DNA of 64,000 bases, taken from NCBI RefSeq assembly GCF_020711235.1, contig NZ_JAJFAV010000002.1, positions 434,001 to 498,000 of the forward strand, read 5' to 3'. Position 1 is the stretch's first letter. Each line of letters opens with the position of its first letter. Shown one piece after another: positions 31,831 through 47,084 of the stretch. The notes beneath the pieces were generated by a model. The model did no database searches. It was not told the DNA's origin and saw only the letters and a list, made by a program, of their open reading frames with translations. A program made the position numbers and the translations under genes. This DNA comes from Hymenobacter sp. 15J16-1T3B (lineage in GTDB: Bacteria > Bacteroidota > Bacteroidia > Cytophagales > Hymenobacteraceae).

Positions 31831-31900
31831 CGGGGGCGACGGGCTTTTCTCCCGTTCTGCTTAAGTGTTGTCCGATTCTAGCACAGCGCCTTGGCAGAAC

Positions 31901-31925
31901 CGAACACTGTGTCCGAAACCGGACA
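31901..31925 (+). promoter_or_regulatory. Composite operator (UAS) of the sigma-54-like regulon, site A
   Basis: CGAACA-N3-TGTCCG (31901-31915), then N4 and a third half-site CGGACA (31920-31925). The same arrangement and spacing recurs at 39654 and 46694. The operator starts 91 bp upstream of the GG of the promoter at 31991. It is probably the binding site of the NtrC-type regulator encoded at 43669. Confidence 0.7.
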
Positions 31926-31990
31926 GATTCTGTACGGGTGGTAATCAACAATACGCGGTCAAGAATCAGATAATCAATGTATTAAAAGTT

Positions 31991-32007
31991 TGGCATTGGG
32001 CTTGGCT
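31991..32007 (+). promoter_or_regulatory. Sigma-54-type promoter, site A (adaptor/TolC operon)
   Basis: TGGCATTGGGCTTGGCT. The -24 GG is at 31992-31993 and the -12-like GC at 32005-32006. The GG-to-GC spacer is 11 bases rather than the classical 10. The start codon of the adaptor is 36 bp downstream. Confidence 0.65.
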
Positions 32008-32042
32008 GTCTACCTGCAGAACCGACCCCAATCCGAACGAAA

Positions 32043-33290
32043 ATGGACAGAGCTATATCCCCCGCCGCTCAGGCCAAGCGCCGCCGCCAACGCTGGCTGT
32101 TGGCCTCGGCCGTTGTGCTGCTGGTAGCCGGTGCGCTGTGGGCTTTCCGCGGCGTGCTCAAGCCCAGCATCAGCGCCACCGAGCTGCTGACGGCCCGCGT
32201 GGAAACCGGCGACGTGGAAGCCTCGCTCACGGCTTCCGGCCTCATCATCCCGGCCCACGAAGCGGTTATTACCAGCCCCATCCAGTCAACCATCCGGCGG
32301 GTGCGGCTCACGGCCGGCGACCGGGTGCAGCCGGGCCAGACCATCCTGGAACTGGACAAGGAGTTGACCGGCACGGCCCTGGCCAAGCTGCAGGACGAGC
32401 AGTTGCAAAACCAGAACAAGAACACCGTACTGCAACTGGGCCTGGAGCACAGCCTGAACGATTTGGAGTCGCAGGAAAAGGTGCAGCAGGAAAAGGTGCG
32501 CAGCCTGCAGTCGGGCCTGCGCGACGAGCAGCACCTGCTCAGCATCGGCTCGGGCACGCCGGAAGCGGTGCGCCAGGCCGAGCTGAACCTGAAGATTGCC
32601 GAGCTGGAACTGCAGCGCGTGCGCCGGCAGATCAAGAACCAGCGGCAGTCGAACCAGGCCGATGAGCGCGGCCTGGGCTACACCATGCAGATTCAGCAGC
32701 GCAGCATCAGTGAATTGGCCGGCAAGCTGCGCCAGGCCAACATCAGCGCCGAGCAGGCCGGTGTGCTCACCTGGGTCAACGAGGACATCGGCTCGACTGT
32801 CAACCAGGGCCAGGTGCTGGCCCGCGTGGCCGACCTGACCTCGTTTCGGGTGCGCGGCTCCATTGCCGATACCTACGCCGACTCCCTGCACGTGGGCGAC
32901 CCGGTGGTGGTGCGCCTGAACGGCACCGACCTGCGCGGCACGGTGAGCAGCATCAGCCCGGCCGTAGACAAGAACGTGGTGACGTTTTACGCTCAGCTCG
33001 ACGACAACCACCACCCGGCCCTGCGCGCCAACCTGCGCGCCGACGTGTTCGTGGTGACCCGCGCCCACCGCAACGTGCTGCGCATCAAGAACGGGCCCTT
33101 CTTCCAGGGCGGCCGCGAGCAAGTGGCCTTCGTGGTGCAGGACGGGCAGGCCGTGCGCCGCACCGTGCGCCTGGGCGACTCCAACTTCGACTACGTGCAG
33201 GTGGTGAGCGGCCTGCGCCCCGGCGAGGAAGTCGTCATCAGCGACACCAAGAAGTACGAAGAAGCCCCCGCCCTCACCATCAAGAACTGA
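32043..33290 (+). CDS. Efflux periplasmic adaptor (MacA/HlyD family)
   Basis: A 415-residue membrane-fusion protein that would link an inner-membrane ABC transporter to a TolC channel. A basic N-terminus (KRRRQR) precedes one transmembrane helix (about 18-35). The lipoyl/barrel-sandwich part (VEASLTASGLIIPAHEAVITSPIQSTIRRVRLTAGDRVQPGQTILELD) is interrupted by a long coiled-coil hairpin (about 100-230, rich in Leu/Gln/Lys/Glu). It then closes with QAGVLTWVNEDIGSTVNQGQVLARVADL and the beta-barrel domain. The gene lies directly behind the sigma-54-type promoter and ahead of a TolC gene. The matching ABC transporter is 6.5 kb away under an identical promoter. Confidence 0.88.
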   Translation: MDRAISPAAQAKRRRQRWLLASAVVLLVAGALWAFRGVLKPSISATELLTARVETGDVEASLTASGLIIPAHEAVITSPIQSTIRRVRLTAGDRVQPGQTILELDKELTGTALAKLQDEQLQNQNKNTVLQLGLEHSLNDLESQEKVQQEKVRSLQSGLRDEQHLLSIGSGTPEAVRQAELNLKIAELELQRVRRQIKNQRQSNQADERGLGYTMQIQQRSISELAGKLRQANISAEQAGVLTWVNEDIGSTVNQGQVLARVADLTSFRVRGSIADTYADSLHVGDPVVVRLNGTDLRGTVSSISPAVDKNVVTFYAQLDDNHHPALRANLRADVFVVTRAHRNVLRIKNGPFFQGGREQVAFVVQDGQAVRRTVRLGDSNFDYVQVVSGLRPGEEVVISDTKKYEEAPALTIKN

Positions 33291-33308
33291 CCCGGCGCCC
33301 GCCCCACG

Positions 33309-33337
33309 GCCCCTCCTGCGAAAAGGAGGGGCGCTTT
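33309..33337 (+). terminator. Weak hairpin between adaptor and TolC genes
   Basis: GCCCCTCCT (33309-33317) pairs with AGGAGGGGC (33324-33332), then TTTT (33334-33337). It could attenuate transcription into the TolC gene or stabilise the adaptor mRNA. Confidence 0.5.
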
Positions 33338-33407
33338 TCGCCCTGCCTGCTCTGCCTTTCCCATGCACCTACCGCTACCCCAACGCCCTGCCCTGCCTTT
33401 CTGCGCT

Positions 33408-34937
33408 ATGAAAACCCTGACGTTTTACCTGGATGTGCTTCGCCTCTGGCTGCTGATGGTAAGCATCGTGGCCCTGCTGCTGCTGATTTTCGCGCCCAAA
33501 GTGCTGCTGGCCCAGGAAATGCCCGCCGCCCGCCCGCAGCCGGCGCTGAGCCTGCCGCAGGTCATTGAGCTGACGCTGGTGCAGTCGTCGGTGGCCAAGC
33601 AGGCGGTGACCAACCGCGAGACGAGCTACTGGCAGTACCGCTCGTTCCGGGCCGACTACAAGCCGCTGCTGGCCGTCGACGGGGTGCTGCCGAACTACTC
33701 GCGCACCATCCTGGCCGTGCAGCAACCCGATGGCACCACCAACTTCCGCTACGTACGCATCAACACCTCCAACGTGGGCGCCAGCCTCACGCAGGGCATC
33801 GGCCTGACGGGCGGCAAGGTCACGGTGGGCAGCACCCTGCAGCGCTTCGACAGCTTCGAAGGCGCCGGGCAGCGGCTCTACAACAGCAACCCGGTGGCCA
33901 TCGGCCTGAGCCAGCCCATCGGCGGCTTCAACTCGCTGAGCTGGAACAAGCGCATCGAGCCGCTGCGCTACCGGGAAAGCCAGCGCCAGTACGTGGAGGA
34001 GCGTGAAACCATTGCCCGCCGCGTCACGGAGCTGTATTTCGACGTGCTGCTGCAGCAGGTGAATGCCCAGATAGCCCGCCAGAACCTGCGCGCCAGCGAG
34101 GAGCTGCTGCGCACCGGCCGCGAAAAAAGCAAGCTGGGCCGCCTCTCCGAAAACGACCTGCTGCTGCTGGAGCTGAACCTGCTAAACGCCCGCCAGGCCG
34201 AGGTGCAGGCCAGCGTGGACGCGCAAAACGCGGCCGTGCAGCTCAAGGGCTACACCGGCCTCACCATCGACCCCGCCGCCGCGCTGGACGTGCCCGGCAA
34301 CGCCCCGCTGCAGAGCGTGACGCCCGACGTGGCCCTGCAGCAGGCCCGGCAGTACCGCCGCGAGGGGCTGATGTTTCAGCGCCGCCTGCTCGAAGCCGAC
34401 CGCAACGTGGCCCAGGCCAAGGGCACCACGGGCTTTCAGGCCAACCTGACGGCTTCCTTCGGCCTGACCAGCAGCGCCGAGCAGCTCTCCGGCTCCTACG
34501 TCAACCCCGCCGACCAGCAGCAGGTGCGCCTGGGCTTCGCGGTGCCCATCGTGGACTGGGGCAAGACCCGCGCCGCCGTGAAGACCGCCGAACTGGCCCG
34601 GCAGCAGGCTCGCGTGACGGTGGAGCAGGAGCAGATGACTTTCGAGCAGTCGGTGCTGAGCCAGGCCGGGCAGCTCGACGCGCTGAACCAGCAGCTGCAG
34701 CTGGCCGCCCGCGCCGACTCGCTGGCCCAGCGCCGCTACGACATTGCCCAGGCCACTTACAAAGTCGGCCGCATCACCCTCAACGACCTCAACATTGCCC
34801 AGGGCGAAAAGGACCGCGCCAAGCGCAGCTACGTGGCTGCCCTGCGCGCCTGTTGGGTGGCTTACTACCAGCTGCGCACCCTCACGCTCTACGACTTTGA
34901 GCGCCAGCAACCCCTGTTGACGGCGCAGGCGGAGTAG
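33408..34937 (+). CDS. TolC-family outer-membrane efflux protein
   Basis: A 509-residue outer-membrane factor. An unusually long hydrophobic N-terminus (residues 6-34, ending LLA-Q) serves as the export signal. Two OEP repeats follow, rich in Ala/Gln/Leu heptads: YRESQRQYVEERETIARRVTELYFDVLLQQVNAQIARQNLRASEELL... and, in the second half, FEQSVLSQAGQLDALNQQLQLAARADSLAQRRYDIAQATYKVGRITLNDLNIAQ. Beta segments TTNFRYVRINTSNVG and GFQANLTASFGLTSS would form the barrel. It probably forms the channel for the adaptor upstream. The ATG at 33408 was preferred over 33363, which adds an uncharacteristic Pro-rich leader. Confidence 0.88.
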   Translation: MKTLTFYLDVLRLWLLMVSIVALLLLIFAPKVLLAQEMPAARPQPALSLPQVIELTLVQSSVAKQAVTNRETSYWQYRSFRADYKPLLAVDGVLPNYSRTILAVQQPDGTTNFRYVRINTSNVGASLTQGIGLTGGKVTVGSTLQRFDSFEGAGQRLYNSNPVAIGLSQPIGGFNSLSWNKRIEPLRYRESQRQYVEERETIARRVTELYFDVLLQQVNAQIARQNLRASEELLRTGREKSKLGRLSENDLLLLELNLLNARQAEVQASVDAQNAAVQLKGYTGLTIDPAAALDVPGNAPLQSVTPDVALQQARQYRREGLMFQRRLLEADRNVAQAKGTTGFQANLTASFGLTSSAEQLSGSYVNPADQQQVRLGFAVPIVDWGKTRAAVKTAELARQQARVTVEQEQMTFEQSVLSQAGQLDALNQQLQLAARADSLAQRRYDIAQATYKVGRITLNDLNIAQGEKDRAKRSYVAALRACWVAYYQLRTLTLYDFERQQPLLTAQAE

Positions 34938-35127
34938 GGGAGAGAGGCCGCAGCCTCCGGTTGGGTTAGTTTTGCTTGGATGAGCTTTTATTTGTACCCA
35001 TCTTATTATATATTGTAAGTAATTAATAAAATATAGCAGCTATAAGCAGCGCAGTGGCATAGCCGTGTCGTAACCGTTCGTGGCCATCAAGTGGATAGAA
35101 GGTTTCTTCCCTCAACCCGGCTGAGCT

Positions 35128-35649
35128 ATGAAATACCTGCTTGTCCTGCTTTGCCTGCTGGCCACGGCGCGGGCCGAAGCGCAGAATGCGCCCCGCGCGG
35201 CTGCCGCCACCGATGAAGCGGCCGTGCGCGCCCCCATCGAGGCCTGCCTGCGCAGCTGGAACCGCCACGACTACACCGACGTGGCCAGCTACACCACCGC
35301 CGACGTGGACTGGGTGACCGACATTGGCATGTGGTGGCGGGGGCGCGAGGCGGTGCAGCGCGCCCTGCAGACCTACCACCGGGGCATGTACCGGCACACC
35401 ACCCTGCGCAGCGAGCAGCTGACCGTGCGCCTGCTCGCGCCCGGCGTGGCCCTGGCCCACCAGCGCGCCTACATCAGCACCTACTACCCGCCCGACGGCA
35501 TCGACCAGGAATACAACCGCGACGGCGACAAGCAGTTGCTCATCAGCTACACGCTGCTGCGCCAGCAGGGCCAGTGGCTGATTGCCGCCGCCCAGGTGAC
35601 GGGCATCAACCAGGTCATGGCGGCGTACAACCCCGTTCAGGAACACTAG
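35128..35649 (+). CDS. Exported SnoaL/SgcJ-like protein
   Basis: A 173-residue protein. A signal peptide (residues 1-19, ...ATARAEA-Q) precedes an NTF2-like fold: EAAVRAPIEACLRSWNRHDYTDVASYTTADVDWVTDIGMWWRGREAVQRAL...QWLIAAAQVTGIN. This is the SgcJ/EcaC/DUF4440 type, a cone-shaped pocket often used for small ligands or simple catalysis. It lies 22 bp upstream of the TonB receptor gene and is probably co-transcribed with it. Substrate unknown. The 190 bp upstream are AT-rich and presumably contain the promoter. Confidence 0.75.
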   Translation: MKYLLVLLCLLATARAEAQNAPRAAAATDEAAVRAPIEACLRSWNRHDYTDVASYTTADVDWVTDIGMWWRGREAVQRALQTYHRGMYRHTTLRSEQLTVRLLAPGVALAHQRAYISTYYPPDGIDQEYNRDGDKQLLISYTLLRQQGQWLIAAAQVTGINQVMAAYNPVQEH

Positions 35650-35671
35650 CGCCGGCCGGGCCGCCTCCGCG

Positions 35672-38185
35672 ATGAAGCAGATGGAAACGCGACCGGGCCG
35701 CCGGCAGTGGTGGCTGGGCTGGCTGTTGCTGGGACTGCCGCTGGGCGCCGGGGCGCAGCAGCCGGCCGGCACCGTCAGCGGCAGCCTGCTCGACGCGGCC
35801 ACGGGCCAGCCGGTGCCCTTCGCCAACGTGCTGCTGCTGCGCGCCGCCGACTCGGCCGTGGTGACCGGCGCGGCCACCGGCGAGACGGGGCGCTTCGTCA
35901 TCGGGCCGGTGGCGGCGGGCAGCTACCGGCTGCGGGCCACGGTGCTGGGCTACCGGCCACTGCGGCGACTCCTGAGCGTGAGCAGCACCGAGCCGCTGGC
36001 CCTGGGCGCGCTGCGCCTGACGGCCAGCACCACGCAGCTGGGCGCCGTGACGGTAACCGGCGAAAAAGCCGTGGTGCAGGAAAGCCTCGACAAGAAGGTG
36101 GTGAACGTGGCCAAGGACCTGACCAGCGTGGGCGGCACGGCCGTGAACGTGCTGCAGAACGTGCCTTCGGTGGCAGTGGACCAAAACGGCACGGTGAGTT
36201 TGCGCGGCACCCCTAATGTGACCATTTACGTCGACGGCAAGCCCACCGGGGCGGCCGGCGGCGGGCGCAGCGTCAACCTCGAGCAGATTCCGGCCTCGCA
36301 GATTGAGGCGGTGGAGGTGATGACCAACCCCTCGGCCCGCTACGACGCCGAGGGCGGAGGCGGCATCATCAACATCATCCTCAAAAAGCCCCGGCAGGAC
36401 GGCTTCAACGGGCAGGCCGCGGCCACCGCCGGTACCGGCGACAAGTACAACACCTCCCTGAACCTGAACCAGCGCCGCGGGCCGCTGAACTACTTCGGCA
36501 GCTACGACTTTCGGCAGGACCACTTGCGCAACCACTACACCACCCGGCAGCTGTCGGCCACCGCCGACCGCAGCACGCTGGCTTGGCTGGAATACCGCAA
36601 CCGCGTGGGCTCCCAAACCCACGCCCTGCGTCTGGGCCTCGACTACGCCCTCAGCCCCGAGCAGACGCTGACCGTGTCGGCGGCGCCCCGGCGCAACACC
36701 GTGCGTACCCCGGAGGAGCAGTTTGGAGCCTTGGTTACCACGTTTCGGCCGGCGGGGCAGCCCGAGCGGACGGAGGACACCGAAGTGTACAGCCGCAACT
36801 ACACCCGCTCGCAGGCCACCGCGGCCGACTTCGCCCTGGACTACCGCCGCACCTGGGCCCGGCACAAGCGCCGGGAGCTGAGCGGGGCGGCCATCTTCAC
36901 GCCGGTGCGCGGCGAGCAGCAGGTGCAGCAGCACCAGCACCCCGAGCTGCCCACCGGCCTCTTGCAGCAGCAGCGCACCACGTTTGCCATCGACCAGGGC
37001 GCGGCCCAGCTCGACTACGTGCACCCCTTGGGCGACAAACGGCGCGCCGAAGCCGGCCTGAAAACCACCTACCGCGGCACCGACGGCACACTGGACTTCC
37101 GGCAGGCCGACGACCAGGGCGAGCTGCGGCCGCTGGAGCGCCTGTCGAGCCGTTACCGGTACCGCGAGGTGATTCCGGCGGCCTACGCGCAGTGGCAGGA
37201 CGAGCCGGGCAAGTTGAGCTACCAGCTGGGCCTGCGCGCCGAGTACACCCGCACCACCGGCCAGCTGCGCACCACCGGCGAGGCGTTTGCCCGCGCCTAT
37301 TTCAACCTCTTCCCGAGCCTGACGCTGGCGCGCACGCTGCCCCACGAGCAACGCCTGCAGCTGGGCTACTCGCGCCGCATCAACCGGCCCGAGCTGCCCT
37401 TGTTGCTGCCTTTCCCTAACTACTCCGACCCGCGCAACTACCGCGTGGGCAACATTCGGCTGCGACCCGAAACCCTGCACGTGCTGGAGTTGGGCCACCA
37501 GAAGAGCTGGGGGCCGGCCACGCTCACCAGCACCGCGTTTTTCCGGCAAACCAACGACGCCATTCAGCGCTTCCGCACCGTCGACACGGCGGCGACGCGG
37601 CTGAACGAGCAGGGCGCGCAGGCCACCCAGAACGCGGCCATCACCCGCACCAGCTACGCCAACGTGGGCCACAACCGCAGCTACGGCCTGGAGCTGAGCC
37701 TGAACTGGCCGGTGGCCAAGTGGTGGCGGCTGGCCCTCAACGGCTCGGGCTTCCGCAACGAAGTGTCGTCGCTGCTGCACTCGGAGGCCGATAACCGCAA
37801 CTGGGCGTGGTCGGGCCGTCTGAATACCACCGTAACGCCCCTCAAACGCCTCGACGTGCAGCTTACGGGCACCTACCGCTCGCGGCAGGTAGGCGCGCTG
37901 GCCGGCTCCCTGGGGCCGATTTACTTCGTGGAAGCGGCGCTGAAGAAGGACGTGCTCAAGGACCGCGGCAGCATTTCGCTGCGCGTAGCCGACGTGTTCA
38001 ATACCCAAGTGCTGCGGGTGCAGGCCTACTCGCCTGGGCTGGATTTCAACCTGCGCATCAAGCGCGAAACGCGCATTGGGTACCTGGGCTTTACGTACCG
38101 CTTCGGCGGCACCGAGCCGGCCCCGCGCCGCAGCCGCCGCTCGGAGCAGCCCGCCGCGCCCACCGGCATCGACATCGGCGGGTGA
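35672..38185 (+). CDS. TonB-dependent outer-membrane receptor
   Basis: An 837-residue receptor. The signal peptide is residues ~10-28 (LGWLLLGLPLGAGA-Q). A carboxypeptidase-regulatory-like domain follows (30-115: GTVSGSLLDAATGQPVPFANVLLL ... GSYRLRATVLGYRP). The plug domain is about 120-230: KKVVNVAKDLTSVGGTAVNVLQNVPSVAVDQNGTVSLRGTPNVTIYVDGKP ... IEAVEVMTNPSARYDAEGGGGIINIIL. The rest is a 22-strand-type barrel ending GYLGFTYRFGG. It belongs to the 'outer membrane beta-barrel family' receptors of Bacteroidota. No SusD partner is present, so a polysaccharide role is unlikely. A siderophore or peptide ligand is possible, but the sequence does not show it. Confidence 0.9.
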   Translation: MKQMETRPGRRQWWLGWLLLGLPLGAGAQQPAGTVSGSLLDAATGQPVPFANVLLLRAADSAVVTGAATGETGRFVIGPVAAGSYRLRATVLGYRPLRRLLSVSSTEPLALGALRLTASTTQLGAVTVTGEKAVVQESLDKKVVNVAKDLTSVGGTAVNVLQNVPSVAVDQNGTVSLRGTPNVTIYVDGKPTGAAGGGRSVNLEQIPASQIEAVEVMTNPSARYDAEGGGGIINIILKKPRQDGFNGQAAATAGTGDKYNTSLNLNQRRGPLNYFGSYDFRQDHLRNHYTTRQLSATADRSTLAWLEYRNRVGSQTHALRLGLDYALSPEQTLTVSAAPRRNTVRTPEEQFGALVTTFRPAGQPERTEDTEVYSRNYTRSQATAADFALDYRRTWARHKRRELSGAAIFTPVRGEQQVQQHQHPELPTGLLQQQRTTFAIDQGAAQLDYVHPLGDKRRAEAGLKTTYRGTDGTLDFRQADDQGELRPLERLSSRYRYREVIPAAYAQWQDEPGKLSYQLGLRAEYTRTTGQLRTTGEAFARAYFNLFPSLTLARTLPHEQRLQLGYSRRINRPELPLLLPFPNYSDPRNYRVGNIRLRPETLHVLELGHQKSWGPATLTSTAFFRQTNDAIQRFRTVDTAATRLNEQGAQATQNAAITRTSYANVGHNRSYGLELSLNWPVAKWWRLALNGSGFRNEVSSLLHSEADNRNWAWSGRLNTTVTPLKRLDVQLTGTYRSRQVGALAGSLGPIYFVEAALKKDVLKDRGSISLRVADVFNTQVLRVQAYSPGLDFNLRIKRETRIGYLGFTYRFGGTEPAPRRSRRSEQPAAPTGIDIGG

Positions 38186-38292
38186 CGCGCATAAGTTCCA
38201 AATGGCTGGTAGGCATTGGCGTGGGGAGGCACAGCGGCTTGGCGGGAATTATCGCGAATAGCTCTTAATTATTATATTTAATAAATAAATAT

Positions 38293-38322
38293 TTGTATTA
38301 AAATTATTCAATGGTTACCTTG
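38293..38322 (+). promoter_or_regulatory. Candidate promoter of the lipoprotein gene
   Basis: TTG (38293-38295), 20 bases, TACCTTG (38316-38322) in an AT-rich stretch 95 bp before the lipoprotein start. It is close to the TTG/TAnnTTTG consensus with one T missing. Confidence 0.45.
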
Positions 38323-38416
38323 ACCATACTTCCGTGTGCGCCCCGTCCGGTCCCGTCCAGAGGACCGGTGCCCCGTTGCCTGTGTGCGTCGACCAACCTC
38401 CTCTTTTCCCCAAACC

Positions 38417-39520
38417 ATGCGTAAACTTAGCCTCGTCTGCCTGACGATGGCTGCCCTGTGGGTAGCCGGTTGCCAGAAAACAGACCTCAATCCCCAACCC
38501 ACACCTACTGCCACCCTTAACGCCGACGTAGCCACGTGCACGCCCGACGTTATCACCTTCGACAACGTAGCGGCCGGCACGCGGCCCACTTCCATTACCA
38601 GCACCGGCGGCGTGGCGGTGGGCGTCGAAAGCCAGAACCCGCACTACGCCTACGACCGGGAGGCCATTGTATTCCGCAGCAGTCCCACGGTGTCGTCCTC
38701 GGAGGATACGGACCTGGGCAGCCCCAACGCGGCGTACGGGGGCGTGGGCATTGGGTACGGCGGCGGCCCGGGCGCTTACGCCAATACCACGCCGCTGGGC
38801 AACATCCTGGTGCTGCACAACTTCTTCAGCTACGACCCGAACACGGAGCCCAACGACGACGACTTCACGGAAAACGAAACGCCGGGCACCATAGGATTCA
38901 ATTTCAGCTCGCCCATCACGGCCACGTCCATCACCGTCATCGACGTGGAATACGCCTACAACAGCGAGCATGAGTACGGCTACGTGAAGCTATACGCTAG
39001 CAAAGGTGGCGCGCAGATCGGCGGGCAGTACAACTTCAGCGACGCGGGCCCCAACGGGGTGGAAGTGGTGAGCCTGGGCAACACGCCCGGCGTGCGCTAC
39101 ATCGAAGTGACCATCGGCGGCTCCATGGGCATCGACAACCTGCGCTTCTGCCGGCCCGCCGGCCACTGCACCCTTACCCAGGGCTACTGGAAAAACCACA
39201 GCTGGCCGGTACAGTCGCTCACGCTGGGCGGCACCACGTACACTCGTACCCAGCTGCTGGCCATCCTCAACACGCCGGTGCGCGGCAACGGCCTCGTGGC
39301 GCTGGCCTACCAGCTCATTGCCGCCAAGCTGAACCTGGCCAACGGCAGCGACGGCAGCGTGATTAGCGCCGACCTGGCCGCCGCCGACGCCATGTTTGTG
39401 GGCAAAAACATGGCCGCCGACCCGCTGCCCAGCGTGCCCACTTCCCAAACCAGCACCCTCACCGCCCGCCTCGACGACTACAACAACGGCGTCATCGGGC
39501 CGGGCCACTGCGACAATTAA
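38417..39520 (+). CDS. Secreted lipoprotein with C-terminal TQGYWKNH domain
   Basis: A 367-residue protein. A lipobox signal (RKLSLVCLTMAALWVAGC, Cys20) precedes a beta-rich domain (about 35-245) of the type found in 'choice-of-anchor' or jelly-roll extracellular proteins: VITFDNVAAGTRPTSITSTGGVAVGVES ... GTIGFNFSSPITATSITVIDVEYA ... VRYIEVTIGGSMGIDNLRFC. A shorter C-terminal domain then begins CTLTQGYWKNHSWPVQSLTLGGTTYTRTQLLAIL. The TQGYWKNH/TQGYWKTH motif occurs in many secreted bacterial proteins; its function is not known to me. The gene is monocistronic and followed by a strong terminator. Confidence 0.75.
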   Translation: MRKLSLVCLTMAALWVAGCQKTDLNPQPTPTATLNADVATCTPDVITFDNVAAGTRPTSITSTGGVAVGVESQNPHYAYDREAIVFRSSPTVSSSEDTDLGSPNAAYGGVGIGYGGGPGAYANTTPLGNILVLHNFFSYDPNTEPNDDDFTENETPGTIGFNFSSPITATSITVIDVEYAYNSEHEYGYVKLYASKGGAQIGGQYNFSDAGPNGVEVVSLGNTPGVRYIEVTIGGSMGIDNLRFCRPAGHCTLTQGYWKNHSWPVQSLTLGGTTYTRTQLLAILNTPVRGNGLVALAYQLIAAKLNLANGSDGSVISADLAAADAMFVGKNMAADPLPSVPTSQTSTLTARLDDYNNGVIGPGHCDN

Positions 39521-39567
39521 GCCCCATTGCGGCCGGCCGCGCCGGCTGCCGCATTGCCAACGTGCTG

Positions 39568-39597
39568 AAAAGGCCGGACGCTTCGTCCGGCCTTTTT
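39568..39597 (+). terminator. Terminator of the lipoprotein gene
   Basis: AAAAGGCCGGACG (39568-39580), CTT, and CGTCCGGCCTTTT (39584-39596) with a T run to 39598. Confidence 0.88.
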
Positions 39598-39653
39598 TCG
39601 TGGGCGAGCTTCCGAAATTTTTCAACGCTGGCGGACAGGGGGCGTGGCATTTC

Positions 39654-39678
39654 CGAACACCGTGTCCGCTTATGGACA
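39654..39678 (+). promoter_or_regulatory. Composite operator (UAS), site B
   Basis: CGAACA-N3-TGTCCG (39654-39668), N4, then TGGACA (39673-39678). It starts 91 bp upstream of the promoter GG at 39745, exactly as at site A. A lone CGGACA half-site lies at about 39632. Confidence 0.7.
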
Positions 39679-39743
39679 ATATTTTTACTGGCTATTTAGG
39701 CTGTTGGCTAAGTAATGAATAGATAGTCAATGGTTTATGGAAA

Positions 39744-39760
39744 TGGCACGCTGCTTGGCT
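39744..39760 (+). promoter_or_regulatory. Sigma-54-type promoter, site B (ABC transporter operon)
   Basis: TGGCACGCTGCTTGGCT: a full TGGCACG -24 element, then TTGGCT. GG (39745-39746) to GC (39758-39759) spacing is 11 bases. The expected start is about 39770, 87 bp before the ATPase gene. Confidence 0.72.
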
Positions 39761-39856
39761 ACTCCTACCCGGCCCCGCTTCACATCCGCGCAAAACCGGA
39801 CAGCACCGCCTTCATCCGAAACCCCTTCACGCCTCAGCCTAAACTCCCGCAGCCCT

Positions 39857-40588
<732 letters not shown>

Positions 40589-40610
40589 ACCAAGGGCGAA
40601 GTTGTGAAAG

Positions 40611-40662
40611 GTGAAGTTGTGAAATGGCCTTGGCGGCCCGCAACCCTGGTTCACAACTTCAC
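40611..40662. repeat. Inverted repeat in the ABC operon mRNA
   Basis: GTGAAGTTGTGAA (40611-40623) and TTCACAACTTCAC (40650-40662) are exact complements. A further partial copy (GAAGTTGTGAAAG) lies just upstream at about 40598. The hairpin separates the ATPase gene from the small ORF at 40688 and could set their expression ratio. Confidence 0.65.
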
Positions 40663-40687
40663 AAGTTCACCACTTCCCAACTTGACT

Positions 40688-40894
40688 ATGAAGCGCTTCT
40701 TCCGCTCCGCCGGCCTGCTGCTAGTGGCCACCGCGCTGCCCTTCGTGGGCGCCGGGCTCTACGACCTGACGGCCCCGGCCCGCGTGCCGGCGGCTACGCC
40801 GGCGCCCGCCGCTGCGCCGCGGCCCCTGGTACGGCCGGCCCTGCTGCTGACGCCTTCTCCCACTTCTTCCGCTCCCCACGTCTATGCTGCTTAG
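40688..40894 (+). CDS. Small exported Ala/Pro-rich protein in the ABC operon
   Basis: A 68-residue protein. KRFFRSAGLLLVATALPFVGAGLYDL forms a hydrophobic N-terminal segment (signal peptide or anchor). An Ala/Pro-rich tail (VPAATPAPAAAPRPLVRP...) follows, long enough to sit in the periplasm. Its stop overlaps the permease start by 11 bp, which supports its translation. I do not recognise a family. By position it may be an accessory subunit of the transporter. Confidence 0.55.
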   Translation: MKRFFRSAGLLLVATALPFVGAGLYDLTAPARVPAATPAPAAAPRPLVRPALLLTPSPTSSAPHVYAA

Positions 40895-42137
40895 CTATCT
40901 GAAACTCGCCTGGAAGGTGCTCTTGCGCCGCAAGTTCTTCACCTTCATCAGCCTCTTCGGCATCTCCTTCACCCTGATGGTGCTGCTGGTGGTGGTGGCC
41001 ATCTTCGACCACTCCTTCGGCGCGCACTACCCCGAGTCGCGCCTCGACCGCCTGACCTTCGCGCAGTTTCTGCACGTCAAGTTCAAGGACGGCGGCAACA
41101 TGAACACCCCGCCCAGCTACCACCTGCTCGACAAGTACGTGCGCACGCTGCGCACCCCCGAGAAGGTGGCCATTACCTCCAACTTCCACTCCACCCCGAG
41201 CTACGTGGGCAACCGCAAGCTCGACCTGGATCTGCGCTACACCGACGCCGCGTTCTGGCAGATCATGGACTTCAACTACCTCGAAGGCAAGCCCTTCCTG
41301 GAGTCCGACGTGAAAGCCGCGGCCCGCGTGGCCGTTATCAACCGCAGCACCGCCCGCCAGTACTTCGGCACCGAAACCGGCGTGGTAGGCCGCATCATCG
41401 AGGTGAACCAGACCAACTACCGCGTGCAGGGCGTGGTCGACGACGTGCCGGCTATGCGCTTCAGCTCCTACGCCGACGTGTGGGTGCCCATCACCACCTC
41501 GCCCGATGACCTGCACCGCGTGCAGCTGCAGGGCGACTATTTCGCCATCATCCTGGCCAAATCCGCTGCCGATGTGCCGGCGGTGCAGGCCGAGTTCGAG
41601 GCGGCCATGAAGCGCGTGCCGCTGCCCGACCCCAAGAACATGGACTACCTGGACCTGCACGCCGACCGGCTGATTGCCTCGTTTTCGCGCCAGCTGATGT
41701 CGCCGCTGACCGACTACAAGTCCGACGGCCTGGAGCTGCTCTACCCCATCCTGGCCGGCCTAGCGCTGCTGTTCATGCTGCTGCCGGCCCTGAACCTGAT
41801 CAACATCAACGTGAGCCGCATCATGGAGCGCTCCTCCGAAATCGGGGTGCGCAAGGCCTTCGGGGCCACCGGCGGCCGCTTGGTGGGCCAGTTCCTGGTC
41901 GAAAACATTTTCCTCACGCTCATCGGCGGCCTGGCGGGCCTACTGCTGGCCTACGTGGTGCTGCAGCTCATCAGCGGCTCGCAGCTGCTGGCCTACGCCG
42001 AATTTGGCCTGAACTGGCGGATTTTCGCCTGGGCCCTGCTCGTGACGGTGTTCTTCGGGGTGCTGTCGGGCGTGTACCCGGCCTTCAAGATGTCGCGCCT
42101 GCAGCCGGTGCAAGCGCTGAAAGCCAGCGGCAAGTAA
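40884..42137 (+). CDS. ABC transporter permease, FtsX/MacB type (first)
   Basis: A 417-residue permease. A first transmembrane helix (about 19-42: FFTFISLFGISFTLMVLLVVVAIF) and a periplasmic MacB_PCD domain of ~230 residues (GRIIEVNQTNYRVQGVVDDVPAMRF) come first. Three C-terminal helices of the FtsX domain follow: LYPILAGLALLFMLLPALNLININVSRIMERSSEIGVRKAFGATGGRLVGQFLVENIFLTLIGGLAGLLLAYVVLQ and beyond. The 'RSSEIGVRKAFGAT' coupling loop contacts the ATPase. It overlaps the small protein gene. It is one half of a heterodimeric or two-permease transporter with the gene at 42270. Confidence 0.9.
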   Translation: MLLSYLKLAWKVLLRRKFFTFISLFGISFTLMVLLVVVAIFDHSFGAHYPESRLDRLTFAQFLHVKFKDGGNMNTPPSYHLLDKYVRTLRTPEKVAITSNFHSTPSYVGNRKLDLDLRYTDAAFWQIMDFNYLEGKPFLESDVKAAARVAVINRSTARQYFGTETGVVGRIIEVNQTNYRVQGVVDDVPAMRFSSYADVWVPITTSPDDLHRVQLQGDYFAIILAKSAADVPAVQAEFEAAMKRVPLPDPKNMDYLDLHADRLIASFSRQLMSPLTDYKSDGLELLYPILAGLALLFMLLPALNLININVSRIMERSSEIGVRKAFGATGGRLVGQFLVENIFLTLIGGLAGLLLAYVVLQLISGSQLLAYAEFGLNWRIFAWALLVTVFFGVLSGVYPAFKMSRLQPVQALKASGK

Positions 42138-42152
42138 CTATCAAGTCGCCCG

Positions 42153-42252
42153 TCATCCTGAGCGCAGCGAAGGACCTTACCACGCCTGAACGAGTCGTTT
42201 TGACTTCAGTCGTGCTTATCCCATAAGGTCCTTCGCTGCGCTCAAGATGACA
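42153..42252. repeat. GTCAT...GAGC inverted repeat, short form (copy R4)
   Basis: 28-bp arms, 42153-42180 and 42225-42252, beginning GTCATCCTGAGCGCAGCG and complementary except for one base. It is inserted between the two permease genes of the ABC operon. Confidence 0.88.
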
Positions 42253-42269
42253 GACAAAATCATCCAGCC

Positions 42270-43475
42270 ATGATCCGTCACCTCTTCACCCTGATCTGGA
42301 ACCGCAAGCGGTCCAATTTCCTGCTCATTGCCGAAATTCTGTTGTCGTTTTTCGTGCTCTTCGTGGTGAGCAGCCTGCTGGTGAGCAGCTACTACAACTA
42401 CCGCCAGACCACCGGCTTCGCCCACGACAACGTGTGGGAAGTGAACCTGAACCCGGGCCAGGACACGGCGCACCGCAAGGAAACGCTGCAGCTCATGCTG
42501 CAGGGCCTGCGCGCCACGCCGGGCGTGGTAGCCGTCACGCGCACCAGCTCCAATACCCCGTTCTCGTTCAGCACCATGAACTCGAACCAGTACTACTACA
42601 AGGGCAAACAAGGCCCGCAGGCCGACCACTACGACGCCGACTACGACATGCGCAAGGTGCTGCGCTTCAACGTGACGCAGGGCCGCTGGTTTGACCGCCG
42701 CGACGACGCCAGCACCGACGACAAGAGCACGCCCGTCATCATCAACCAGAAGATGGCCACGGCCATGTTCGGGCCGGAAGCCGCCGTAGGCAAGGTGCTC
42801 ACCGACCGGGAAGGCAAAGCCAAGTGGCCCGTGGTGGGCGTCATCGATGCTTACCGCCCCGGCAGCGACTTTGCCGCCAACGAGCCGGCCGTGTTCTTCC
42901 GCACCGAGCTGAACGAACACGCCAAGCTCGACCCCAACGCGGGCCCGGGCGTGCTGCTGGTGCGCGTGCAGCCCGGCAGCGGCGCCGTGCTGGAGCAGCG
43001 ACTGGTGAAGGAAATCCTGAGCTCGACCAAGGGCTGGCACGCCGTGGTGAACACCCTGGACGAAAGCCGCCACGACAAACTGAAAGTGGTGCTGACGCCG
43101 CTGGTGGCCCTGGGCGTGGTGTCCTTGTTTCTGATCATCAACGTGGCCCTGGGCTTGTTCGGGGTGCTCTGGTACAACATCAACCAGCGCCGGGCCGAAA
43201 TCGGGCTCCGCCGCGCCCTGGGCGCCACGGGCGCGGGCATTGGTGGGCAGTTCCTGGGCGAAATGCTGGTGGTGACCACGCTGGGCGTGCTGGCCGGCGT
43301 GGTGCTGGCGGCGCAGTTTCCCTTGCTGGGCGTGTTCGGGCTGGAGCCCACGGTGTACGTGCTGGCCATTGTCCTCGCGGCCGTGCTCATCTACGTGCTG
43401 ACGGCCATCTGCGCCTTCCAGCCCAGCCGCATTGCCGCCGGCATTCAGCCCGCTGTGTCCTTGCGCGAGGAATAA
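42270..43475 (+). CDS. ABC transporter permease, FtsX/MacB type (second)
   Basis: A 401-residue permease with the same plan as the preceding one: N-terminal helix (LLIAEILLSFFVLFVVSSLLVSSYYNY), periplasmic MacB_PCD domain, then three helices. The coupling loop QRRAEIGLRRALGATGAGIGGQFLGEM is followed by FQPSRIAAGIQPAVSLREE at the end. Sequence identity to the first permease is low, so the two probably form a heterodimer on a single ATPase or on two copies of it. Repeat R4 separates the genes. The transporter would hand substrate to the adaptor/TolC pair at 32-35 kb, but that pairing is an inference. Confidence 0.9.
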   Translation: MIRHLFTLIWNRKRSNFLLIAEILLSFFVLFVVSSLLVSSYYNYRQTTGFAHDNVWEVNLNPGQDTAHRKETLQLMLQGLRATPGVVAVTRTSSNTPFSFSTMNSNQYYYKGKQGPQADHYDADYDMRKVLRFNVTQGRWFDRRDDASTDDKSTPVIINQKMATAMFGPEAAVGKVLTDREGKAKWPVVGVIDAYRPGSDFAANEPAVFFRTELNEHAKLDPNAGPGVLLVRVQPGSGAVLEQRLVKEILSSTKGWHAVVNTLDESRHDKLKVVLTPLVALGVVSLFLIINVALGLFGVLWYNINQRRAEIGLRRALGATGAGIGGQFLGEMLVVTTLGVLAGVVLAAQFPLLGVFGLEPTVYVLAIVLAAVLIYVLTAICAFQPSRIAAGIQPAVSLREE

Positions 43476-43668
43476 CCGCCGGCGCGGGCTCGGCCAGGCC
43501 TTCCGGCGGTCGAGCCCGCGTCCACCGGGACGTACCTCGCTCTGCTCGAACAATTGTCACGCTTCGGGCAATGCTATTGTCTGACCGGTAGTCGCTTACG
43601 TCTGCCTTGCCGCCGCGCTTCCCTTTCCGCCCCGAAATTCCGTCCTTCGCCTTCTCTCTTCAGCTGCT

Positions 43669-45057
43669 ATGATACTAATCGTCGACGATGATGTGGCCGT
43701 GCGCACCTCGCTGGGGCTGCTGCTCAAACAGGCCGGCTACGCCACCAAGGCCGTGGCCACCCCCGACGACGCCCTGCGCGTGGTGCGCGAGGCGGCCCCG
43801 CAGCTGGTGCTCATGGACATGAACTACTCCCTGGCCACCACCGGCGAGGACGGCCTGCGCCTGCTCGGGCAGGTAAAGGACGTGGCCCCGCAGCTGCCCG
43901 TCATCCTCATCACCGGCTGGGGCTCCATCAGCCTGGCCGTGGAGGGCATGAAGGCCGGCGCGGCCGAGTTCGTGACCAAGCCCTGGAACAACGACGCGCT
44001 GCTGCAAACCATTCGCACCGCGCTCAGCCTGGCCGAAAACGCCGCCACCGCGCCCGCCGACGAGGTCAGCCCCACGCGCCGGCAGCTCGACCGGCAGTAC
44101 AACTTTGCCAGCATCGTGGGGCAGGACGCGCAGCTCTTGCAGGTGCTACGCAGCGTGGGCCAGGTGGCCGCCACCGATGCCTCGGTGCTCATCGAGGGCG
44201 AGTCGGGCACGGGCAAGGAGCTCATTGCCGAGGCCATTCACCTGAACTCGAACCGGCGCAACAAGCCCTTCGTGAAGGTGAATTTGGGCGGCATTTCGGC
44301 GTCCTTGTTCGAGAGCGAAATGTTCGGGCACCGCCGCGGCGCCTTCACCGATGCCAAAGCCGACCGGCAGGGCCGCTTCGAGCTGGCCAACGGCGGCACC
44401 ATTTTCCTCGACGAAATCGGGGAGCTGGACTTAGGCTCCCAGGTGAAGCTGCTGCGCGTGCTGCAGGACCGCACCTACGAGGTGCTCGGCGACTCGCGCA
44501 GCCGCTCCCTCGACATCCGCGTCATCTGCGCCACCAACCGCGACCTGGCCCAGGAAGTGCGCGAGGGGCGCTTCCGCGAGGATTTGTTTTACCGCATCAA
44601 CCTCATCACCGTGCGCCTGCCCGCCCTGCGCGAGCGGCCCGACGACGTGCCCCTGCTGGCCCAGCACTTCGTGCAGAACCTGCGCACGGCCTACCACCGC
44701 CCGGCCCTGAAGGTGAACACCCGCGCCCTGCACTGGCTGCGCGAGCAGCCGCTGCCCGGCAACATCCGCGAGCTGAAAAACCTGGTGGAGCGCGCCGTGC
44801 TCGTCAGCGGCAAGGACGAGCTGGGGCCCGAGGACTTCCAGGCCCAGGCCCAGCGCTTCGTGCCCAAAGTGGAGCCCGGCGCCCTGCCCGAAGTCGGGCT
44901 GATGACGCTGGACGAAATGGAAGCCCAGATGATTCGCAAAACGGTGGACTTTTATGCCGGCAACCTTTCGCGCGTGGCCAAGGCTCTGGGCCTGAGCCGC
45001 GGCGCGCTGTACCGCCGCCTGGAAAAATTCAACATTCCCTTCGACGCTGCGCAGTAA
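43669..45057 (+). CDS. NtrC-type sigma-54-dependent response regulator
   Basis: A 462-residue regulator. The receiver domain (1-120) has the phospho-acceptor Asp50 in LVLMDMNYS and a Lys in VTKPWNND. An AAA+ domain (about 147-385) has Walker A GESGTGKE (177-184). The sigma-54 contact loop reads GAFTDA (224-229) where the textbook sequence is GAFTGA. Walker B is GTIFLDEIGEL. A Fis-type helix-turn-helix ends the protein (LSRVAKALGLSRGALYRRLEKF). It should activate the sigma-54-type promoters at 31991, 39744 and 46783. The 193 bp upstream contain one CGAACA half-site (43547-43552). Its kinase is the next gene. Confidence 0.93.
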   Translation: MILIVDDDVAVRTSLGLLLKQAGYATKAVATPDDALRVVREAAPQLVLMDMNYSLATTGEDGLRLLGQVKDVAPQLPVILITGWGSISLAVEGMKAGAAEFVTKPWNNDALLQTIRTALSLAENAATAPADEVSPTRRQLDRQYNFASIVGQDAQLLQVLRSVGQVAATDASVLIEGESGTGKELIAEAIHLNSNRRNKPFVKVNLGGISASLFESEMFGHRRGAFTDAKADRQGRFELANGGTIFLDEIGELDLGSQVKLLRVLQDRTYEVLGDSRSRSLDIRVICATNRDLAQEVREGRFREDLFYRINLITVRLPALRERPDDVPLLAQHFVQNLRTAYHRPALKVNTRALHWLREQPLPGNIRELKNLVERAVLVSGKDELGPEDFQAQAQRFVPKVEPGALPEVGLMTLDEMEAQMIRKTVDFYAGNLSRVAKALGLSRGALYRRLEKFNIPFDAAQ

Positions 45058-45078
45058 CGTTTGTTGAAAGCAAGTAGA

Positions 45079-45195
45079 ACGTCATTCCGAGCTTGCCGGG
45101 GAATCTCGCGTGCGGACGTCCGAGAGTAATTTCTTCGTGAAGGTTGCTATCCGACGAGCCCAGGCGAGATTCCCCGGCAAGCTCGGAATGACGTT
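45079..45195. repeat. GTCAT...GAGC inverted repeat, short form (copy R5)
   Basis: Perfect 32-bp arms, 45079-45110 and 45164-45195, beginning AACGTCATTCCGAGC. The centre (GTCCGAGAGTAA ... TATCCGACGAG) is shared with copy R7 at 62.9 kb. It lies between the regulator and kinase genes. Confidence 0.9.
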
Positions 45196-45227
45196 CTTTT
45201 AACAGCATAGCAACGCAGCCGCCCTGC

Positions 45228-46553
45228 ATGACCCTTCGCACCAAGTACATCCTCTTCGTCGCCCTCATCCACGCGGCCATTGCGGGGCTGGCGTTTCAGC
45301 TGCGCGAGTCCAACATGGTGCTGTTTCTGGTGACGGAGGCGCTGCTCATCGGCACGGCCGTCATCAGCGTGCAGCTGTACCGGGGCTTTGTGCGGCCCAT
45401 CAACCTGATTGCGGCCGGCACCGAAGCCATCCGCGACCGGGACTTCACCATGAAATTTCTGCCGGTGGGCCAGACCGAAATGGACCAGCTCATCGACACC
45501 TACAACACCATGATTGACGAGCTGCGGCAGGAACGCGTGAGTCAGCACGAGAAAAGCTTTTTGCTGGAGCGTCTCATCGACGCCTCGCCGGCGGGCATTC
45601 TGCTGCTCGATTTTGAGGGGCGTATTCAGGGCGTGAACCCCGCGGCCGAAAAGTGCCTGCAGCAGCCGGCGGCGCAGCTGCTCGGGCTGGCGCCCGCCGC
45701 GCTGCCCGGCGAGTGGGGCCGGGTGCTGGGGGAACTGGAGCCCGGGCCGCCGCAGGTGGTGCAGCTCTCGGGCCTGCAGACGTTCCGGGCCAGCGCCTCG
45801 CACTTCCTCGACCGCGGTTTTACCCGGCGCTTCATCGTGCTGGAAGAGCTGACGCAGGAGCTGATCCGGCAGGAAAAGCAGGCTTACGAGAAGCTGATCC
45901 GGATGATGTCGCACGAAATCAACAACTCCATCGGCGCCGTCAACTCCATCCTGCAGTCGTTCCGCTACTACGCCGCCCAGCTGGCCGAAGACGACCGCGC
46001 CGACTTCACCGAGGCGCTGGACGTGTCGGTGCAGCGCAACACGCACCTGGCCAACTTCATTGCCGGCTTCGCCAACCTCGTGCGCCTGCCCCCGCCCCAG
46101 CCGCGCCCCGTCGACGTGCACGAGCAGCTCAAGGCCATCTGCCGGCTGTTGCAGGTGCAGAGCGAGAAGCGCAACATCCGCTGGCACTGGCACCTGGCTC
46201 CGGGGCCGCTGTTTGTGGCGCTGGACGCGCAGCAGATGGAGCAGGCCCTGCTCAACATTTGCAAAAACGCCCTCGAAGCCATCGACCACGACGGCAACCT
46301 GTGGGTGCGCACCACGGCCCACCCGGCCGAAATCATCATCGAAAACGACGGCCCCGGCATTGCGCCCGCCGTGCAGCCCCACCTGTTCACGCCCTTTTTC
46401 AGCACCAAGCGCGACGGGCAGGGCATCGGCCTGACGATGATCCGCGACATTCTGCTGCAGCACGGTTTTGCCTTCAGCCTCGCCACCGACGCGGCCACCG
46501 GCCGCACGGCCTTCCGCATCAGCCTGGAGCCCGCCGGCGTCGCCCGTGCCTAA
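45228..46553 (+). CDS. Membrane sensor histidine kinase (NtrB/NtrY-like)
   Basis: A 441-residue kinase. Two closely spaced N-terminal helices (about 7-22 and 30-50) are followed by a HAMP-like linker (YRGFVRPINLIAAGTEAIRDRDF). A PAS domain is at about 110-205 (LIDASPAGILLLDFEGRIQGVNPAAEKCL). The dimerisation helix has the phospho-acceptor His229 in MMSHEINNS. An ATPase domain follows (NICKNALEAI, ENDGPGIAP, STKRDGQGIGLTMIRDIL). The periplasmic loop between the helices is only a few residues, so the signal is probably sensed in the membrane or cytoplasm. It should phosphorylate the NtrC-type regulator encoded 170 bp upstream, beyond repeat R5. Confidence 0.92.
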   Translation: MTLRTKYILFVALIHAAIAGLAFQLRESNMVLFLVTEALLIGTAVISVQLYRGFVRPINLIAAGTEAIRDRDFTMKFLPVGQTEMDQLIDTYNTMIDELRQERVSQHEKSFLLERLIDASPAGILLLDFEGRIQGVNPAAEKCLQQPAAQLLGLAPAALPGEWGRVLGELEPGPPQVVQLSGLQTFRASASHFLDRGFTRRFIVLEELTQELIRQEKQAYEKLIRMMSHEINNSIGAVNSILQSFRYYAAQLAEDDRADFTEALDVSVQRNTHLANFIAGFANLVRLPPPQPRPVDVHEQLKAICRLLQVQSEKRNIRWHWHLAPGPLFVALDAQQMEQALLNICKNALEAIDHDGNLWVRTTAHPAEIIIENDGPGIAPAVQPHLFTPFFSTKRDGQGIGLTMIRDILLQHGFAFSLATDAATGRTAFRISLEPAGVARA

Positions 46554-46566
46554 GCGGCCCCTGCAC

Positions 46567-46629
46567 CGCCCCCACGGGGGGCGCTTCGTCGCCCGGTAGT
46601 GCCGGCCGGCGGAGCGCCCCGTGGGGGCG
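46567..46629. repeat. Inverted repeat after the kinase gene
   Basis: CGCCCCCACGGGG (46567-46579) and CCCCGTGGGGGCG (46617-46629) are exact complements. No T run follows. It may protect the 3' end of the kinase mRNA or be a dispersed element. Confidence 0.65.
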
Positions 46630-46693
46630 ACGCTTTGTTGCCGGCCCGCGCTACGGCCTTTCGGAAAACTGTATCGGAACCGCACGACAGTAC

Positions 46694-46718
46694 CGGACAG
46701 GCTGTTCGGAATCGAACA
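46694..46718 (+). promoter_or_regulatory. Composite operator (UAS), site C
   Basis: CGGACA-N3-TGTTCG (46694-46708), N4 and CGAACA (46713-46718): the same three half-sites at the same spacings as sites A and B. It starts 90 bp upstream of the promoter GG at 46784. Confidence 0.68.
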
Positions 46719-46782
46719 GTTTTATTGGGGTGAAATTATTGAATATGCATTTAATAAAATGATTGTCAAGATATTATAAATA

Positions 46783-46799
46783 TGGCACGCGGCTTGGCT
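46783..46799 (+). promoter_or_regulatory. Sigma-54-type promoter, site C (small ORFs, DUF1345 gene)
   Basis: TGGCACGCGGCTTGGCT, almost identical to site B. GG (46784-46785) to GC (46797-46798) spacing is again 11. The expected start is about 46809, 25 bp before the 39-residue ORF. Confidence 0.7.
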
Positions 46800-46833
46800 A
46801 TAGGTAGACAAGAACCTCTAGCATCCCGCGAAA

Positions 46834-46953
46834 ATGAACACTGCCCGTCACTCCCTCGCTCTGCCCAACTCCTGCCCTCGGCTGCCGCTGCGGGCCCTTG
46901 GCCACGGGCCGGTGCGGGTCACGCGGGCCGGGCGGCCCCTGAGCGGCCGCTAA
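46834..46953 (+). CDS. Possible 39-residue small protein behind sigma-54-type site C
   Basis: The ATG at 46834 opens MNTARHSLALPNSCPRLPLR and ends at TAA 46951. The product is basic (many Arg, one Cys), with no hydrophobic helix. It is the first ORF after the promoter. No family is recognised and no Shine-Dalgarno sequence is visible, so translation is unproven. Confidence 0.35.
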   Translation: MNTARHSLALPNSCPRLPLRALGHGPVRVTRAGRPLSGR

Positions 46954-47000: not shown

Positions 47001-47084
47001 ATGAAAACGCGTCTTTCGTCCCCCGCCCTGTCTGCCCGTCCCTGGCGCCGCGCCACCCGCCGCTGGCTGCGCGCGGCCGTGTAG
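47001..47084 (+). CDS. Possible 27-residue Arg/Trp-rich peptide behind site C
   Basis: The ATG at 47001 encodes MKTRLSSPALSARPW followed by RRATRRWLRAAV and a TAG stop. There are eight Arg residues, one Lys and two Trp, with no acidic residue, so it is strongly cationic and amphipathic-like. It could be a secreted or membrane-active peptide, a toxin-like peptide, or a leader for the DUF1345 gene. It lies 48 bp after the preceding small ORF and ahead of a 13-bp hairpin. Confidence 0.4.
   Translation: MKTRLSSPALSARPWRRATRRWLRAAV

Follow-up and report, generated by a model that had tools for sequence, protein, structure and literature searches.

We describe three promoters of a common build in a 64,000-nucleotide stretch of the genome of Hymenobacter sp. 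15J16-1T3B (assembly GCF_020711235.1, contig NZ_JAJFAV010000002.1, positions 434,001 to 498,000), here called the window. Each combines an operator, a sigma-54-type -24/-12 element at a nearly constant distance from it and a further, weaker dyad placed past the predicted transcription start. From the sequence, we consider it highly probable that the NtrC-type response regulator encoded at 43669 activates these RpoN promoters, and that its targets are a split export pump, the regulator itself, the adjacent histidine kinase, two tiny proteins and outer-membrane proteins encoded elsewhere in the genome. This offers a candidate regulator and operator for a class of Bacteroidota export pumps for which sigma-54 control had been predicted at class level. 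Operator, promoter and downstream dyad are base-exact across promoters that differ in gene and spacer, which makes the geometry of activation directly testable. Window features named below lie on the forward strand unless stated.

The first-pass annotation, made from the window alone, had placed the composite CGRACA-N3-TGTYCG-N4-YGRACA at 31901, 39654 and 46694, at a fixed distance from three sigma-54-like promoters, and had judged chance a very unlikely cause. All three positions are correct. The distance from the first base of the composite to the first G of the GG in the -24 box is 91, 91 and 90 bp, and half-sites 1 and 3 are 19 bp apart in all three. The -24/-12 elements themselves lie at 31991..32007 (TGGCATTGGGCTTGGCT), 39744..39760 (TGGCACGCTGCTTGGCT) and 46783..46799 (TGGCACGCGGCTTGGCT). 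Across the whole genome (6,334,101 bases in 42 contigs) the exact composite occurs four times, in the three window sites and at C33:241528 on the reverse strand, and the reversed pattern does not occur, which bears out the judgement on chance. The C33 copy likewise starts 91 bp ahead of the GG in a -24/-12 element (TGGCATCACGCTTGGCT) and is upstream of three OMP_b-brl_3-like outer-membrane protein genes in a row (Pfam checked for two). The annotation had named frequent occurrence of the motif away from such promoters as evidence that would count against it; in this genome each of the four copies is accompanied by a promoter, 91 or 90 bp away. By itself, the first dyad is present in five places, compared with two per strand for the reversed control, and the -24/-12 pattern alone has 13 matches versus 19 in the control. 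Only the combination of operator and promoter is therefore informative, and we dropped the sigma-54 box alone as evidence. Apart from the described promoters, a perfect TGTCCG-N4-CGGACA with AAAACCGGACA nearby is present at C42:90029 (L007).

The scan of this and related Hymenobacteraceae genomes that the annotation had proposed found the promoter at a near-constant gap. We searched 150 genomes of the family with the first half-site pair and the promoter, leaving the gap between them free from 60 to 90 (31 lengths). This gave 53 matches in 36 genomes, against zero with the pattern reversed. Fifty of these sites have a gap of 75, two have 76 and one, the third promoter of the window, has 74. 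The third half-site, absent from the search pattern, is exact in 50 of the 53. Although only TTG had been requested at the -12 box, it is followed by G in all 53 and then by C in 50, so we write the -12 element as TTGGCW; a search with TTGC, as in TTGCW, had returned none of the 150 genomes, this one included, the fault being in the pattern and not in the site. A TTGCA form of the box is present in L138 and L139. At the level of the order, the same pattern occurred in five of 118 genomes, all five within Hymenobacteraceae.

Genes 3' of the family sites encode HlyD and TolC, or the ABC ATPase, two MacB/FtsX permeases, regulator and kinase, or OMP_b-brl_3-like proteins; none of these usual targets lies 3' of the site in L063. 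There, from 8001 (G030), operator and promoter precede two small, apparently secreted proteins of no known family, and the downstream dyad is missing. Scanning these loci with a weight matrix revealed a further 22, weaker sites, all no more than 1 bp off the gap of 75, with none in the reversed control. Among 20 sampled genomes that carry the regulator gene and lack the exact motif, the matrix at a lower threshold matched in 17 (control 0). These 24 matches, found upstream of HlyD, upstream of the ATPase or after the kinase, have a gap of 75 in 21 cases, 74 in one and 63 in two, the last in two genomes of genus g6; the remaining three genomes have a dyad upstream of HlyD.

Used without any gene information, the motif finds homologues of the same pump well beyond the genus. 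A scan of 84,980 genomes, from which this genome or near relatives were possibly left out, with CGAACA-N3-TGTYCG-N4-YGGACA-N60..70-TGGCA gave 43 matches in 42 stretches, 38 of them from Hymenobacter. Taking as target the nearest downstream homologue among 12 window proteins, this was the ABC ATPase in 24 cases, HlyD in 16, the TolC-like protein (OEP) in one and OMP_b-brl_3 in one, with none at the cut-off in one; 42 of the 43 matches thus lie upstream of a pump or OMP_b-brl_3 homologue, L180 being a weaker OMP match. The four stretches from elsewhere, a Parabacteroides and metagenome-assembled genomes (MAGs) of a Bacteroides, a Bacteroidaceae and a Candidatus Neomarinimicrobiota, extend the motif to Bacteroidales and to one Neomarinimicrobiota genome, all before pump homologues (adaptor or duct 33-39% identical; ATPase, where seen, 68-71%). 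The Parabacteroides site carries all four of the half-sites described below. In these four loci the TGGCA matched by the scan is probably a second one, and a likelier -24/-12 element is closer to the operator, 44, 57, 45 and 45 bp after the third half-site (L175, L182, L188 and L192, respectively). The regulator gene was not among the matches in these four stretches as retrieved. Seven distant regulator loci (51-60% identity) keep HlyD, ATPase, two permeases and regulator in the same order; a TolC homologue was not detected in L142, L143 and L144, nor a kinase in L144.

The half-sites of the annotated operator are real, but the three-half-site form given to it is probably incomplete. The reading we prefer is two 16-bp dyads, that is, four half-sites of which the outermost is worn and lies 10 bp before the start first assigned. 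The proposed full form is TGTYCR-N4-YGRACA-N3-TGTYCR-N4-YGRACA, with dyad centres 19 bp apart, in which one half may decay. In the window, dyads A and B occupy 31891..31906 (left half degenerate, right half CGAACA) and 31910..31925 (TGTCCG-N4-CGGACA) at promoter 1, 39644..39659 and 39663..39678 (TGTCCG-N4-TGGACA) at promoter 2, and 46684..46699 and 46703..46718 (TGTTCG-N4-CGAACA) at promoter 3. Ahead of the composite start, C predominates at position -6 and A/G at -5, and A/T predominates at -3 and -2, like in the centre of the second dyad. The two-dyad form is favoured because six loci (L124, L125, L126, L128, L129 and L130) keep the outermost half intact as TGTCCR yet have lost the second half. 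We set aside CGRACA-N3-TGTYCG as a dimer site, since the symmetric AT-rich centre sits in TGTYCR-NWWN-YGRACA. Sites for sigma-54 activators usually lie about 80-200 bp upstream, and the upstream dyads here, at about 93-127 bp before a start that is itself predicted from the -12 element, fall within this range.

The annotation recognized composite and promoter and left out a further element, a downstream dyad (D) at 32034..32049, where it overlaps the HlyD start codon, at 39787..39802 (CGCGCAAAACCGGACA), where it precedes the ATPase start codon, and at 46825..46840, one base nearer, with a TGAACA half and overlapping a small-open-reading-frame (ORF) start codon. Within 200 nt after the -12 box, YGGACA is present in 50 of the 53 family promoters (offset 36 in 49 of them, offset 35 in the other) and in none of the 53 reversed leaders. 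In a larger set of 99 promoters, YGRACA is at offset 36 in 92 and at 35 in two; the reversed leaders of that set hold four scattered copies, none at 35 or 36. With its left side included the element reads YGYnCR-AAAn-YGGACA, an operator dyad with a worn left half.

Searching for the -24/-12 element plus the downstream half-site, with no operator in the pattern, gave 83 matches in 53 of 110 genomes, compared with 17 for the reversed pattern. One exact length out of eleven permitted is shared by 69 of the 83, and 64 of these are within 17.5 kb of the regulator gene; the other five are the mapped hlyD promoter of L070 and four OMP loci (L057, L058, L066 and L247). Among the 14 matches off the exact length, seven are far from known targets and look like chance, and one, in G058, is on the opposite strand beside the regulator gene. 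This operator-free search led to three further members at new places, L247, L248 and L249. Each carries the operator, with slight mismatches, at the usual distance, and the genes next downstream are 88, 61 and 61% identical to the C33 OMP genes.

Might the downstream dyad be a feature of the messenger, a translation-start or leader signal, and not a protein site? We think this unlikely, if a reading with some substance: the dyad contains the ATG of hlyD and of the small ORF, and at hlyD the half-site ATGGACA is simply start plus second codon. However, the dyad includes a start codon at hlyD promoters and not at ABC-ATPase or OMP_b-brl_3 promoters, where it is mostly AAAACCGGACA or near it and keeps the same distance, and its left half and A-rich centre resemble the operator dyad.

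The constant spacing could also reflect inheritance, the promoters being recent copies of one ancestor. In favour, the 49-nt spacer is 40% identical between promoters within a locus (35 pairs) versus 29% when shuffled, with an AT-rich block in register. Yet nearly all family promoters keep the length to 1 bp even though most of the spacer sequence has diverged, spacers of hlyD promoters across genomes are 38% identical, no closer than the promoters of one locus, and the gap of 63 in the two g6 genomes means that the length can change. We therefore rate common descent as the cause of the spacing improbable. The block itself, TAA.ww.yTGAwwwwyAr....TT in a one-register consensus of 91 promoters that also has purines at the expected +1, lies ahead of the -24 box at offset 59-83 from the operator start, in register, and is possibly a site for an architectural protein. 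IHF-like sites in the spacer amounted to 30 loose matches in the 91 promoters at three offsets, and we describe the stretch simply as an AT-rich block.

The regulator (43669..45057) joins in one protein a PF00072 receiver, a PF00158 Sigma54_activat domain and a PF02954 Fis-type helix-turn-helix, the domain set of the NtrC family, and RpoN is represented by a single match in the genome (PF04552, 192 bits). An orthologue of the regulator occurs once per genome in 131 of the 150 family genomes (E up to 1e-120). The gene is present in all 36 motif-bearing genomes and the motif in none of the 19 genomes without the gene (Fisher p 0.007, relatedness ignored). Together with the occurrence of the sites at homologous pump genes in other organisms, this supports the earlier claim of one regulator for the pump. 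The recognition helix (LSRGALYRRLEK here) keeps LYRR in all 90 orthologue loci (some genomes counted twice), down to 50% identity and in other classes. It is very improbable that the sites are bound by another sigma-54 activator or a different DNA-binding protein, the neighbouring regulator being a coincidence: the genome does encode nine strong sigma-54 activators, with recognition helices read for six of the other eight, but all six helices differ from that of the regulator, the motif tracks the regulator gene, helix and half-site are both kept into other classes of the phylum, and the gene follows the site-preceded permease genes in the clusters compared, save L070, where the stretch ends earlier.

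Several observations weigh against control by this regulator as proposed. Its activator loop is GAFTDA, not GAFTGA; GAFTDA is found in 88 of the 90 orthologue loci and GSFTDA in the other two, and five other activators of this genome whose loops were read have GAFTGA or GSFTGA. The -24 box matches the textbook TGGCAY-N5-TTGCW, whereas the -12 box, in TGGCAY-N5-TTGGCW, is shifted or altered, and the -24/-12 element is, as noted, not enriched by itself. The exact motif is missing from 95 of the 131 family genomes with the regulator gene, of which the 20 sampled above were inspected, and a single stop codon is present in each of five of the 131 regulator matches, including two from genomes that carry the motif. 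Five of the 99 promoters are without the downstream half-site (L063 and L131-L134). The dyad pattern is found in three of the seven distant loci and by eye only in three more, with none in L142. As to the loop, a NorR variant with GAFTDA still opens sigma-54 promoters, independently of its sensor domain (PMC2941729).

As a mechanism, we propose that the kinase encoded at 45228 would respond to the membrane or the transporter and phosphorylate the regulator at 43669. The phosphorylated regulator would bind dyads of the form TGTYCR-NWWN-YGRACA and activate RpoN-dependent promoters, each with a pair of neighbouring dyads upstream (about -127 to -93) and a single, weaker one downstream (about +16 to +31). 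Bound to A and B, it would open the promoters of hlyD-tolC, of the ABC ATPase, two MacB/FtsX permeases, regulator and kinase, of two tiny proteins and of unlinked OMP_b-brl_3 proteins, so that pump, regulator and kinase would be induced together in positive feedback. The downstream dyad may, on the simplest view, act as a governor-type brake or as the third anchor of a fixed loop, in a three-dimer complex like that of NorR.

Both roles have precedents. The half-site of NtrC differs from the one found here; in architecture the two systems are alike in having an NtrC-family activator, two strong enhancer sites and extra weaker sites further downstream. At E. coli glnAp2, extra low-affinity NtrC sites downstream of the two strong enhancers were proposed to limit output at high activator-phosphate (PMC3870243). 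Unlike in glnAp2, the extra site here lies past the predicted start, at a fixed distance and at many promoters, and the target is an efflux pump. For NorR, a norVW fragment with three enhancer sites stabilizes a hexamer-like ring (PMC2941729). The three dyads here recall the three NorR sites, as the loop recalls the GAFTDA that NorR tolerates; however, NorR senses NO through a GAF domain and has all three sites upstream, whereas here two are upstream and one downstream, and the kinase is a separate protein. Two upstream and one downstream dimer at base-exact distances in unrelated operons raise the tentative, rather doubtful, idea of a hexamer that encloses the promoter. Enhancers of sigma-54 promoters are generally regarded as movable; if the idea is true, this activator would need its downstream anchor and a fixed phasing, and so be an exception to that rule of flexibility.

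The histidine kinase (45228..46553) has two adjacent transmembrane segments, HAMP, PAS and HATPase_c domains. Its hydrophobic windows span residues 5-26 and 29-50, with none past 60, the topology of an intramembrane-sensing kinase, and aligned orthologues have a similar N-terminus. Because no periplasmic domain is visible, its signal probably comes from the membrane or from the transporter itself, as with BceS-type kinases, and topology and gene order suggest that its activity may be tied to the transporter, as in Bce-type flux sensing. The output regulators of BceRS-type systems are OmpR-type; here the output regulator is, by contrast, an NtrC-type sigma-54 activator, which suggests a transporter-sensing kinase feeding a sigma-54 switch. 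In BceRS-BceAB modules an FtsX-type permease stands beside a kinase without an extracellular sensing domain (PMC7828314), and the FtsX-type permeases of the window likewise adjoin a kinase with no visible extracellular domain.

The pump genes encode the adaptor, duct and permease domains that together characterize MacAB-TolC: an HlyD-family periplasmic adaptor (32043..33290; Pfam PF13437/PF16576) and a TolC-like outer-membrane efflux protein (33363..34937; PF02321) behind promoter 1, and a LolD/MacB-type ABC ATPase of 243 aa (39857..40588, its start placed at the post-promoter ATG) with MacB_PCD-FtsX permeases a (40884..42137) and b (42270..43475) behind promoter 2. Unlike in MacAB-TolC, the ATPase-permease fusion of MacB is absent, the ATPase and two unlike permeases being separate proteins, and for this reason we file the pump as MacB-like only. 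The darobactin exporter DarBCD, LolCDE and ADOP were rejected as identities, with scores below the NCBIfam cut-offs. Its family suggests that the pump may serve against antimicrobial peptides or in envelope stress. In E. coli and Salmonella, PhoPQ controls MacAB (PMC5985334). In L137 (G099), three pairs of MacB/FtsX permeases lie between ATPase and regulator.

The third promoter lies directly upstream of two tiny ORFs, of 39 aa (46834..46953) and 27 aa (47001..47084), followed by a DUF1345 membrane protein (47224..47907; PF07077), a possible further member of this operon. L061, L065 and L119 have counterparts of the small ORFs (44 and 26 aa) after the kinase. When these loci are compared with one another, the window being left out for length, differences at third codon positions number 35 versus 22 and 22 at the other two for the first ORF and 20 versus 10 and 10 for the second, which hints that both are coding. 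The second product (MKTRLSSPALSARPWRRATRRWLRAAV) is arginine-rich and strongly cationic; L061 and L065 share its RPWRRATRR core unchanged, and L119 has one residue different. In two close relatives, L059 and L060, whose regulator is 97% identical, DUF1345 comes after the kinase and the search showed no site in the interval, which makes DUF1345 a less secure target. The annotation had assigned the split pump and a small-ORF/DUF1345 operon to one regulator: pump and small ORFs fit this well, and DUF1345 only weakly.

The annotation also knew of no published account of such a regulon. Among the papers listed in searches of the open-access literature, we recognized no description of the operator, its regulator or the downstream dyad, but sigma-54 control of this class of permeases had already been predicted. 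A 2025 survey predicts such control for the FtsX-like permeases of COG0577 (ABC-type antimicrobial peptide transport), with enrichment in several classes that include Bacteroidia (PMC12316311); the prediction is made at class level, and the text searched gives no regulator or operator for these permeases and mentions neither Hymenobacter nor macB.

Between the two pump operons lie three further genes. A DUF4440/SnoaL-like protein (35128..35649) is at most a candidate member of operon 1, and an OMP_b-brl_3/CarboxypepD_reg outer-membrane barrel (35672..38185) has no site of its own that we could find here. A secreted protein of no known family (38336..39520), whose start is likelier at about 38414 (MRKLS...), has counterparts in five other clusters compared. 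The ORF at 40624-40902 is probably spurious, with no counterpart at the cut-off in the clusters compared. Further along, on the reverse strand, a 2934-aa ORF (51534-60338) with 14 YDG and four MBG_2 stretches and a MopE-type motif perhaps encodes a large repetitive surface protein.

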